From Halobaculum marinum (GTDB lineage Archaea; Halobacteriota; Halobacteria; Halobacteriales; Haloferacaceae): DNA of 64,000 nucleotides. Every line of letters begins with the position of its first letter. The stretch's first letter is position 1. A program made the position numbers and the translations under genes. The DNA is taken from NCBI RefSeq assembly GCF_029338555.1, contig NZ_CP119989.1:2480001-2544000 (forward strand). The letters run 5' to 3'. The notes below the pieces were generated by a model. That model had not been told where the DNA came from. It saw only the letters and a program-made list of their open reading frames with translations, and made no database searches. Positions 52,206 through 56,182 of this stretch are shown here, in pieces.

Positions 52206-52212
52206 GTTAATC
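52206..52212 (-). promoter_or_regulatory. TATA box of atpD
   Basis: Minus-strand GATTAAC centred 34 bases before the atpD ATG, overlapping the TAA of the upstream surface-protein gene. It would let atpD be expressed without its neighbours. Confidence 0.4.
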
Positions 52213-52968
52213 CTTGTTAGTCGCCCGCCGGCGAACCGCGAGCAGTACCGCACCCGCGAGCGCCGTGACCAACACTCCGGGGAGCGGTGTCGGGGCCGAT
52301 GTCGCTGTGCCGTCTGCCGAGTCACCGTCCGCGTCGGCCGCGGATGCTGCTGGGGCGAACGTCGCCGAGAACCCCTCAAGCGACGCCCCGCCCGACCACG
52401 CTGCAGCCCTGCCATCGACGGCGTCGGGCGTCGGGTTCGCCTCGTCGAACGTGTACCCCGTAGGCCCGCGAACCACGAACGCTCGGTCCGGCTCGAACCC
52501 GCTCGCGAACGGAGCGCCGACCGTCAGCCGGTCCCCTTCGACCACCGCGAGGTTCGTCCACGTCGCTGCGATTGTGACGACGCCGGTGGCCCCACCGTCG
52601 TCTGTCGATACGTGGACCGTCGCATTCCGAACAGCCATCGAACGACCCGTCCGCTCGCCAGCCTGCGACGCGACTCGGTCGATGCGCTCGGCGAACCTGC
52701 GCGAGACGTTCTCGCGGTCGTCGTCGACCGCCTCGAACGCACGTCGCTCGCCGTCGGACGACAGGTCGAACGTCAGCCGGAGCGCCACGGTCGCGTCACC
52801 TTGCTCGGTCACGTTCACGACGAACGCCTCCGTGGCGCCGGTCGTCAAGTCGGTCGACGCGGTCTCCGTCGCCGCGGCGGGACCGACCGCTGTCGTGGCT
52901 GCGACAGCCACCGTCAGCGCAAGCAGGAGACGAACTGTCCTGTTCGACCCACGGCTCGTTCCGACCAT
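52207..52968 (-). CDS. membrane-anchored surface protein (DUF7345-like)
   Basis: A 253-residue protein (ATG at 52968; GTG at 52971 possible). N-terminal Sec signal ([21 protein letters not shown]), an extracellular domain of about 170 residues, and a C-terminal single helix ([20 protein letters not shown]). The ectodomain has [26 protein letters not shown] and a [16 protein letters not shown] segment that align with the winged-helix-containing protein encoded at 55028-56182 (FQASFEQNKSERLDRFSGRIDGV; VDGDRVVAGDVFGSGF). The two are therefore paralogues of a haloarchaeal surface domain family. Function unknown. Confidence 0.8.
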
Positions 52969-53020
52969 CACCGCCGACCTCGACCGGCGTCAACTCGTCG
53001 GCTGGTCCGTCCCTGGTTGT

Positions 53021-54832
53021 TCATCGATCGTCCTCCTCGGCGTCATCCGCTTCTTCGTCCTCCTCCTCTTCCTCCTCTTCCTCTTCATCCTCTTCATCCT
53101 CCTCCTCCTCGTCTGCTTCCTCTTCTTCCTCCGCGTCGTCGGCCTCGTCTCTATCGTCGTCCGCTTCGTCGTCCGCGTCGTCAGCGTCGTCGTCCGCGTC
53201 CTCCGCGTCGTCAACGTCGTCTTCCTCCTCAGCACCCTCGCTGTCCTCGGCATCGTCCTCCACGTCGACGTCGGCGAGCGAGAGCCCACCAGCTGCCGAC
53301 TCGAACTCGAAGGCTGCCCGGAACTGCCCCTTCGTCACGACGACCTCGAGCTCGTCAGTTGCGTCGGTTGGGAACGTCAGCCGCCCGTCGGCGTCGGTCG
53401 TCCCGACGACACCGTCGTCCGCGACGACGGTCGCCCCGGAGACGGGCGACCCGTCGAACGTCACGCGGACGGTCGCGCTGCCGTTGGCGACGGTGGCGGT
53501 GGCGTCGAGCGACCCACCGAAGGCCGACTCGGCGGCGTCCGACCGGTCGCGGAACTCGTACTCCAGTTCGGCCTCCACGTCACCGTGCTCGGCTTCGACC
53601 TCCACCGAGTCGGCATCTGGGAGCGTTACCGTCAGCCGCCCGTCGGCATCCGTGGTGCCGACCGACTGGCCGTTCACCTCGACGGCGACGTCCGCCGCCG
53701 GGTCGCCGCCCGACAGCACCAGCAGCGTCACGGTCGCGTTCGGCGCGGGGGTACCGTCAGCGACGAGGATGGCGAGTTCGTCCTGCTCGTCCTCGTCGCG
53801 GTCCTCGCCCTCGTCGTCAGCATCGCCGCGGTCGTCGTCACCGTCGCCGTCGTCCACGTCATCCTCGTCTCGGTGTTCCGTCTCCTCCTCCAGTCGGTAG
53901 ACGACGCCAGACGACGCGTCGACGCGAACCTTCGCCTCGCCCGTCAGGTTCTGCGTGCCGCTGAGCGCGAACTCGAACTCGTAGGCCCCCTCGTACTCGC
54001 GGACTTTCGTCGCGGTGAGCGTCCACGACCCCTCGGGCGGAGACGCGAGCGCCGCACGAGCGGTGTCGAGCGCGTCCGCCTGCGAGACGGTGAAGTTCGT
54101 GTCGTCGTCGCGGGGGCGCTCGATCTCCCGCGAGCGCTCGCCGTCCTCGCCCTCCGCTTCGATCTGGAGCCCGTCGCCGGTCTCGATCCGCAGTTCACCG
54201 GTCGTCTCGCCGGTGAAGCGGCGCAGTAGTGCCGACGCACCGACGCCAGAGACGTTCTCGACGTCGCCAAGTGCGCCTGCGACGGCTTCCTCGCGGTACC
54301 CGGCGACGCGGAGGTCGAGCGCCGAAACGTTCTCGGCCCGCCGCTCTAGGCGAACGGCGGCCTCGGTCACGGACTCCGCGCGGGCGTTGAGCGTCGCGAT
54401 CCGTTGGCCGTACGCCGACGCGTCGATGTCACCGGATTCGTACGCCTCGGTGGCTGCACGGTAGTCTTCGGCGATGCTCGCCGCGCGCTCACGGAGCGTC
54501 GCCGCGCGCTCGGCGACGACGGCTGCCCGGACGGAGTCGTTCTCTGCGCGCTCGAACTCGTAGCGGAACGACCCCTCCGCGAACTCGCTCTCCACTTCGG
54601 TGTCGGTGACCGCGAGCACCGTCGAGAGTTGCCCCCCGACCGTGACGTTCACCGACTCGTTGGCGGTGTCGTTCTGCGTCGTCTGCTGCTGTACGGCTCC
54701 GTCGTCCGGCGCGGCCACGGCAGCCGCGTCGGCGCCGTCGGTCACCCCGGGAGACGCCACCGCCGCCGCGGGGACACTCCCCACGACGAGCAATAGCGCC
54801 AGGGCGACGGCGATCAGGTTCTTGGCGGTCAT
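53021..54832 (-). CDS. secreted protein with two Ig-like domains and a long acidic tail
   Basis: A 603-residue protein. Sec signal at the N-terminus (NLIAVALALLLVVGSVPAAAVA), helical N-terminal half rich in Glu/Ala (about 60-230), then a PepSY-like region (SQADALDTARAALAS, KVRVDASSGVVYRLE), followed by two Ig-like/carboxypeptidase-regulatory domains with matching endings (VGTTDADGRLTVTLPD and VGTTDADGRLTFPTD). The last about 100 residues are almost only Asp, Glu and Ala. No membrane anchor. Probably an extracellular, highly charged protein; the role is unknown. Confidence 0.82.
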   Translation of the reverse strand: MTAKNLIAVALALLLVVGSVPAAAVASPGVTDGADAAAVAAPDDGAVQQQTTQNDTANESVNVTVGGQLSTVLAVTDTEVESEFAEGSFRYEFERAENDSVRAAVVAERAATLRERAASIAEDYRAATEAYESGDIDASAYGQRIATLNARAESVTEAAVRLERRAENVSALDLRVAGYREEAVAGALGDVENVSGVGASALLRRFTGETTGELRIETGDGLQIEAEGEDGERSREIERPRDDDTNFTVSQADALDTARAALASPPEGSWTLTATKVREYEGAYEFEFALSGTQNLTGEAKVRVDASSGVVYRLEEETEHRDEDDVDDGDGDDDRGDADDEGEDRDEDEQDELAILVADGTPAPNATVTLLVLSGGDPAADVAVEVNGQSVGTTDADGRLTVTLPDADSVEVEAEHGDVEAELEYEFRDRSDAAESAFGGSLDATATVANGSATVRVTFDGSPVSGATVVADDGVVGTTDADGRLTFPTDATDELEVVVTKGQFRAAFEFESAAGGLSLADVDVEDDAEDSEGAEEEDDVDDAEDADDDADDADDEADDDRDEADDAEEEEEADEEEEDEEDEEEEEEEEEDEEADDAEEDDR

Positions 54833-54860: not shown

Positions 54861-54867
54861 CATAAAC
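54861..54867 (-). promoter_or_regulatory. TATA box of the acidic-tail secreted protein gene
   Basis: Minus-strand GTTTATG centred 32 bases before the ATG at 54832. Confidence 0.45.
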
Positions 54868-54906
54868 TGGAATCACCTCCCCGACGACTCCCGTCGAATC
54901 CCGACC

Positions 54907-54954
54907 GTTCCCGGGGTCGAGCGGCTCGTTCCCGCCGGTTCCCGGTCGTTCCCG
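54907..54954. promoter_or_regulatory. four phased GTTCCCG boxes in a divergent promoter
   Basis: Copies at 54907-54913, 54928-54934, 54938-54944 and 54948-54954; start-to-start spacing is 21, 10 and 10 bases, so all face the same side of the helix. They lie between the TATA boxes of the leftward acidic-tail gene and the rightward winged-helix membrane protein gene. This is the layout of a cooperative operator, and the winged-helix protein is the obvious candidate binder. Confidence 0.5.
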
Positions 54955-54990: not shown

Positions 54991-55000
54991 ATATTTTAGG
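54991..55000 (+). promoter_or_regulatory. TATA box of the winged-helix membrane protein gene
   Basis: ATATTTTAGG, centred about 32 bases before the ATG at 55028; the leader would be only a few bases. Confidence 0.45.
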
Positions 55001-55027: not shown

Positions 55028-56182
55028 ATGGTCGGGGGACGGCGGACGGTCGCGCTCGTGCTCGCGGTGCTGTTGCTCACAGCGTCGCTGCCAGCCGCGG
55101 CAATCGGGGCTGCACAGACGGCCGACCCGGACGCCGACAACACGGTCACGCGGATCGAACTCGCGGCCGACGGGTCGGCCACGTGGATAGTCCGCGTGCG
55201 CACGCGATTGGAGACCGAGGCGGACGTCCAAGAGTTCGAGCGCTTCCAAGCGTCCTTCGAGCAGAACAAAAGCGAGCGCCTCGACCGGTTCAGCGGACGA
55301 ATCGACGGCGTCGTCCGGAACGCGGTCGACGCGACCGGCCGTGAGATGACAGCCGAGAACTTCTCGCAGTCCACGTCAATCCAGGAGCTTCCGCGTCGGT
55401 GGGGAGTCGTCACCTACCGGTTCCGGTGGCGTGGCTTCGCACGTGTCGACGGCGACCGCGTCGTTGCCGGCGACGTGTTCGGGAGCGGGTTCTACATCGA
55501 CGAGAGCGACAGCCTCGAAGTGGTCGCACCGCCGGGGTACGCGCTGCAGTCCGTCGCCCCCGACCCGGCCAGTCGAGACGGCAGGACCGTGACGTGGGTC
55601 GGACCCGAGAGCTTCGCAGACGGCCGGCCACTGGTGCGTGCCGCACCAAGCGCGACCCCGACCTCGTCGCTGGAGACGACCCCCGCCGACAGCGCCGGCG
55701 AGGAGAGCCGTCCGCTCGACCTCGCCACGGCCCCGTACCTCCTCGGGACGGTCGCCGTCGGAGCGGTCGCCGTCCTGGCGCTGCTGTTCACCCGTCGGCG
55801 CTCGGGGGCGCCCCACAGCGTCGCCGACACAGACCGCTCGCCGTCCGGTGGCGGTGCAGGTCCACCGCGAATTGGTGGTGGTGATAGCGACGCCGGCCCC
55901 ACGAGCGCGGACGGGACCGCCTTGACTTCCGCGACCACCGACGCTCGCACGCCGTCAGGCGAGGACACGCTCCTCACCGACGAGGACCGCGTGCTCGCGC
56001 TGTTGGAGGAGCACGGCGGGCGAGTCAAGCAGGCGACCGTCGGCGACCAGTTGGAGTGGTCGTCGTCCAAGACGTCGCGCGTCGTCGGGCGGATGGCGGA
56101 CGAGGGGACGGTCGAGAAACTCCGCATCGGTCGAGAGAACGTCCTCCAGACACCGGCGTCGGACGACGAAACAGAGCGGTAG
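55028..56182 (+). CDS. membrane-tethered winged-helix regulator with surface domain
   Basis: A 384-residue protein in three parts. An N-terminal Sec signal (TVALVLAVLLLTASLPAAAIG) precedes an extracellular domain (about 30-220) paralogous to the protein at 52207-52968. One transmembrane helix (LLGTVAVGAVAVLALLFTRRR, about 240-260) is followed by a disordered linker and a C-terminal winged helix of the DUF7343 type (about 315-380; DRVLALLEEHGGRVKQATVGDQLEWSSSKTSRVVGRM, visible as WSSSKTSRVVGRMADEG). This is a one-component, signal-across-membrane architecture. It is divergent from the acidic-tail gene and likely controls that promoter and its own. Confidence 0.83.
   Translation: MVGGRRTVALVLAVLLLTASLPAAAIGAAQTADPDADNTVTRIELAADGSATWIVRVRTRLETEADVQEFERFQASFEQNKSERLDRFSGRIDGVVRNAVDATGREMTAENFSQSTSIQELPRRWGVVTYRFRWRGFARVDGDRVVAGDVFGSGFYIDESDSLEVVAPPGYALQSVAPDPASRDGRTVTWVGPESFADGRPLVRAAPSATPTSSLETTPADSAGEESRPLDLATAPYLLGTVAVGAVAVLALLFTRRRSGAPHSVADTDRSPSGGGAGPPRIGGGDSDAGPTSADGTALTSATTDARTPSGEDTLLTDEDRVLALLEEHGGRVKQATVGDQLEWSSSKTSRVVGRMADEGTVEKLRIGRENVLQTPASDDETER

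Follow-up and report, generated by a model that had tools for sequence, protein, structure and literature searches.

A stretch of 64,000 nucleotides from Halobaculum marinum, hereafter called the window, was found to carry a six-site array of phased direct repeats between two divergent genes, and related phased arrays, several of them with the same 3+3 layout, lie upstream of DUF7096 genes in many other haloarchaea. In the reading that we consider likely, this is an upstream operator array for the DUF7096–DUF7345 operon, which would be activating and would be read head-to-tail by the neighbouring DUF7345-TM-DUF7343 membrane protein. Very little is known about the binding targets of haloarchaeal membrane-anchored winged-helix regulators. 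One such winged-helix family is now tied to a precise, conserved, single-locus target, and its binding, cooperativity and specificity drift become directly testable. The loci also vary naturally in repeat layout and core, and could serve in studies of direct-repeat recognition in archaea.

The phased array between the divergent genes

The initial annotation had reported four copies of GTTCCCG within 48 bp, and their positions were confirmed exactly on the forward strand (54907, 54928, 54938 and 54948, with start-to-start distances of 21, 10 and 10 bp). The four heptamers were real, but the number of sites was revised: the core common to the array is TCCCG, which occurs in six exact copies with steps of 10, 10, 21, 10 and 10 bp, a 3+3 layout. 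The array was flanked by TATA-like elements of both divergent promoters, each located 32-33 bp from the start codon of its own gene, in agreement with the arrangement first described. The features are as follows.

54889–54913, + strand: triplet 1, TCCCG at 54889, 54899 and 54909 in 10-bp steps, the last unit inside the GTTCCCG at 54907
54930–54954, + strand: triplet 2, TCCCG at 54930, 54940 and 54950, corresponding to the last three GTTCCCG copies, 21 bp after triplet 1
54879–54883, + strand: doubtful, imperfect seventh unit CCCCG (one mismatch), 10 bp before triplet 1
54861–54866, − strand: for the leftward (DUF7096) promoter, a TATA-like element that reads CATAAA on the + strand, with CATAAAC or CATATAC at the same place in orthologs
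54992–54998, + strand: for the rightward promoter, that of the winged-helix gene, a TATA-like element TATTTTA, read from the sequence
53021–54832, − strand: P0001, an exported DUF7096 protein that has an acidic tail and Fn3_arc-like domains; its gene is probably what the array mainly controls
52207–52971, − strand: wing-less DUF7345 ectodomain protein, encoded second in the leftward operon
55028–56182, + strand: P0002, candidate membrane one-component regulator with signal peptide, ectodomain, TM helix, linker and winged helix

The clustering was compared with simulated 64-kb sequences generated at Markov orders 1, 3 and 5 (60 sequences each). At least four non-overlapping copies of any 7-mer per 48 bp were observed in 0 of the 180 sequences, and the window array is not due to chance, in line with the initial annotation. 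The only other four-copy cluster of a 7-mer within 48 bp in the real window was a low-complexity CGTCGTC tract in the region coding for an acidic tail. The tail of the DUF7096 protein (53046-53225) is a long poly-Glu/Asp segment of low complexity encoded by simple repeats, and the tails of its orthologs vary. Exact TCCCG triplets at 10-bp steps occurred twice in the 3.5-Mb genome, both times at the array. A second genome match of the intergenic region (L002) was dismissed as a chance similarity inside an acyl-CoA synthetase-like gene. Within the array, the cores were identical and the 5-bp spacers shared only 32% identity. This combination indicated that the units did not arise by recent tandem duplication, and it argues for selection on the core.

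Conservation of the array and its probable target promoter

Orthologs of P0002, about 41-48% identical over the alignment, were scattered over many haloarchaeal genera, and their genes adjoined a DUF7096 gene in nearly all ortholog loci. Direct repeats of TTKCR phased at 10 bp, in forms such as GTTTCA, GTTGCA and GTTTGCA, were observed upstream of the DUF7096 gene in almost every ortholog locus; once redundancy was removed, these amounted to about 40 promoters, drawn from many haloarchaeal genera. Across 41 non-redundant promoters, 71 TTKCR pairs lay 10 bp apart, compared with 0.4 in shuffles; further distance peaks were found only near 20/21, 30/31 and 40/41 bp, and 143 sites were on the preferred strand versus 23 on the other. 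In many ortholog promoters there were two triplets 20-21 bp apart, and the series began about 55 bp before the DUF7096 ATG. The complete 10-10-21-10-10 layout was present in L108 and L112 and, with one weak unit, in L064, L059, L063 and L060, and its distance from the DUF7096 ATG was roughly that seen in the window. When the core is set one base to the left, the window sites are located at 55, 65, 75, 96, 106 and 116, which equals L112 and partly the L064 group; the offset of triplet 1 from the DUF7096 start is the same as that in Halorubrum loci such as these two. The upstream region of DUF7096 in one ortholog pair (L053/L116) contained no clear array.

The window therefore shares two features with this family of loci: phased direct repeats on the upstream side of the DUF7096 TATA box, and an adjacent ortholog of the membrane winged-helix gene. 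The core differs: the TCCCG/GTTCCCG units have diverged from TTKCR while the layout was retained, and they scored poorly on a profile trained on the exact TTKCR units of other species. Since that profile misses the window units, layout and position are the basis on which homology is claimed. Judged by this comparison of sequences, the window layout is homologous to the arrays of its relatives, and the GTTCCCG core is a diverged, lineage-specific version. The initial annotation had proposed a search for the heptamer and its spacing in orthologous promoters; the exact heptamer was not conserved there, but the phased architecture and the related TTKCR core were.

In seven rearranged loci (L104, L117, L110, L130, L111, L065 and L068), the array had stayed in front of DUF7096-type genes, and the winged-helix gene had no phased pair upstream of it. 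The array thus follows the DUF7096 gene, which makes the DUF7096 promoter its constant partner. Its general function is probably the control of the DUF7096 operon, and autoregulation of the winged-helix gene may at most be an extra, possible only in divergent loci such as the window. The proposal of an operator array for auto- and cross-regulation consequently held as far as a conserved, phased regulatory array is concerned and did not hold for autoregulation as a general feature, given the rearranged loci. A second, short DUF7096-like gene was observed beside the locus in L025 (656-1423), L104, L110, L117, L065 and L068, and L025 had additional, weaker phased repeats upstream of it.

The specificity of the array was examined by pattern matching. 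In 24 ortholog genomes, 13 of the 16 exact TTKCR triplets were at the DUF7096 locus; 12 places were in genomes with both genes adjacent or near. In 167 family genomes, 77 triplet matches were tallied by hand. The DUF7096 locus accounted for 13 of them and the region upstream of a PadR gene in a single genus for 4; the remainder, about 60, was close to the 53 matches of a reversed-pattern control. One of the 13 locus triplets in this wider search, in G043, was outside the selected orthologs; the pattern led to it, and its neighbours were the same gene pair. The 69 paralog loci of the winged-helix family showed no excess of phased arrays, in a comparison where the lag-10 autocorrelation was too noisy to decide single loci. 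Taken together, the idea that the array is a dedicated, one-target cis-regulatory element is well supported by these sequence comparisons. A separate phased triplet, TTTCG/TTGCA/TTTCA, was observed in G103 (L231, 1501-1525) upstream of an exported-protein gene unrelated to the DUF7096 locus.

Candidate regulator and proposed mechanism

The divergent gene had been described as encoding a membrane protein with a winged helix, and the predictions bore this out. P0002 comprises a DUF7345 ectodomain (38-207), a TM helix (235-257), a long linker and a C-terminal DUF7343 MarR-like winged helix (318-374). Its AlphaFold2 model had high confidence for the ectodomain and the winged helix, and Foldseek matched the winged helix to MarR- and ArsR-type domains. 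By prediction, P0002 combines an ectodomain, a TM helix and a DNA-binding domain in one protein, which is the plan of a membrane one-component regulator. A literature search found no paper on DUF7345, DUF7343 or DUF7096, and a search on phased archaeal repeats found nothing relevant. Of the 34 ortholog loci in the named genome collection, 20 had a wing-less DUF7345 gene behind DUF7096; the wing-less protein of the window could be a partner or decoy for the membrane regulator.

We compared the sites with the recognition helix of the neighbouring protein. The base at position −1 of the site was T in 5 of 71 cases where x of the WSxSK motif in this helix was Lys and in 34 of 53 cases where it was not (Fisher p = 7e-12, a value that ignores the relatedness of the sequences). 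Two independent readings of the recognition-helix residues agreed. On the tree, no more than one or two changes account for this covariation, which fits co-evolution but is neither statistically independent nor independent proof. P0002 is itself unusual at residue x (S346), which is one of the few unusual positions in the window protein. The same state was found at one other locus, L131, the upstream region of which includes TTCCCG among other forms. MarR-like domains usually bind palindromes as dimers rather than direct repeats, which counts against a MarR-like binder here, as does a similar phased GTTTCR triplet upstream of a PadR-type gene in four genomes of one other genus, all lacking a close ortholog of the pair; such arrays may thus be read by another protein. 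On balance, the array is probably bound by the neighbouring DUF7345-TM-DUF7343 protein. CsmR (PMC13286277) was considered as a relative and rejected; its motif is a semi-palindrome and did not match.

In the proposed mechanism, P0002 would bind the sites head-to-tail through its cytoplasmic winged helix, and several copies of the regulator would be placed side by side on the array near the membrane. The ectodomain would sense a surface signal, upon which transcription of the DUF7096 operon would rise, and in the divergent arrangement the regulator may also affect its own gene. All sites face the same side of the helix and precede the DUF7096 TATA box by about 20-90 bp; this placement fits an upstream activating array to which several winged helices would bind next to one another. 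Archaeal activators usually bind upstream of the BRE/TATA (PMC5512572). As to the sign of the effect, we lean towards activation of the DUF7096 operon rather than repression. More tentatively, the locus could be a self-contained surface-signalling module in which a tethered MarR-like winged helix sits head-to-tail on a six-site array as its only target. The DNA specificity would then have drifted in concert at all six sites, where GTTTCA/GTTTGCA became GTTCCCG, one recognition-helix residue would have changed along with them, and the operon would encode a wing-less copy of the sensor domain as a possible feedback partner.

Alternative explanations and comparison with known systems

The nearest rival keeps the same binder and differs in the sign: the neighbouring protein would act as a repressor that is released by the surface signal and silences both promoters in divergent loci. 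MarR-like proteins are often repressors, commonly on divergent promoters, and the array occupies the space between both TATA boxes. However, the sites are upstream of the TATA/BRE and not over them, and in rearranged loci the array is kept only upstream of DUF7096-type genes. We regard repression as rather unlikely. It is less likely again that this is a genuine operator array bound by a separately encoded regulator, for example of the PadR type, with the neighbouring winged-helix protein acting on other targets. These genomes contain many PadR paralogs, and in G079, G080, G081 and G083, which lack a close ortholog of the pair, a PadR-type gene has a conserved phased GTTTCR triplet upstream of it. 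Against such a regulator, the array is essentially confined to the DUF7096 locus where the pair exists, it accompanies this winged-helix clade and not its paralogs, and base −1 of the site tracks the recognition-helix residue.

Two further explanations dispense with a sequence-specific regulator. Phased TT steps might curve the DNA or position chromatin, and this role would suit the periodicity of 10 bp and the TT step that most units contain. Curvature alone, however, is not expected to produce the observed strand bias; the phase is retained in the window although two of the six units have no TT step, and the arrays are not general in these genomes. A purely structural role is accordingly very improbable. 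A functionless minisatellite formed by slippage is scarcely credible: Tandem Repeats Finder did report two short 10-bp arrays at the site, but the cores are identical where the spacers have diverged, and the conservation of layout and position across genera contradicts slippage.

The nearest described layout was found at the archaellum (fla) promoter of Methanococcus maripaludis. EarA, the regulator of the archaellum, comes from a different protein family and is not known to have a sensor ectodomain. It is a winged-helix activator with four 6-bp sites immediately upstream of the BRE/TATA of the fla promoter (PMC5512572). The window array likewise consists of short sites in a row just upstream of the BRE/TATA, but it has six of them instead of four, in phase and strictly arranged as 3+3. 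P0002 matched DUF7345, DUF7343 and MarR, not EarA, and so falls outside the EarA family.

Among membrane-anchored proteins, P0002 resembles ArnR/ArnR1 of Sulfolobus acidocaldarius in being, by prediction, an archaeal one-component regulator of the HTH kind. These surface-structure regulators act on promoter boxes and have their HTH at the N terminus, two TM helices at the C terminus and a putative HAMP domain (PMC6396743), whereas P0002 has an N-terminal ectodomain, one TM helix and a C-terminal winged helix. With CadC/ToxR-type activators (PMC5430869), P0002 shares a membrane-tethered winged helix, a disordered linker and multiple adjacent sites. The ToxR/CadC family is defined by an OmpR-type winged helix at the N terminus, a single TM helix and a sensor at the C terminus; P0002 has the opposite order, and its C-terminal winged helix is MarR-like (DUF7343). 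P0002 is therefore not a member of the ArnR/ArnR1 or CadC family, since both domain order and winged-helix family differ. OmpR and PhoB bind direct repeats about one turn apart.

In genus g18 (L224, 1490-1530; L225, L226 and L227), three phased GTTTCR/GTTGCR repeats were observed about 100 bp upstream of a conserved PadR-type gene, in four of the five genomes of this single genus. As in the window, phased repeats precede a winged-helix gene, but no DUF7096 or DUF7345 gene is nearby; this is possibly an independent array of the same kind.
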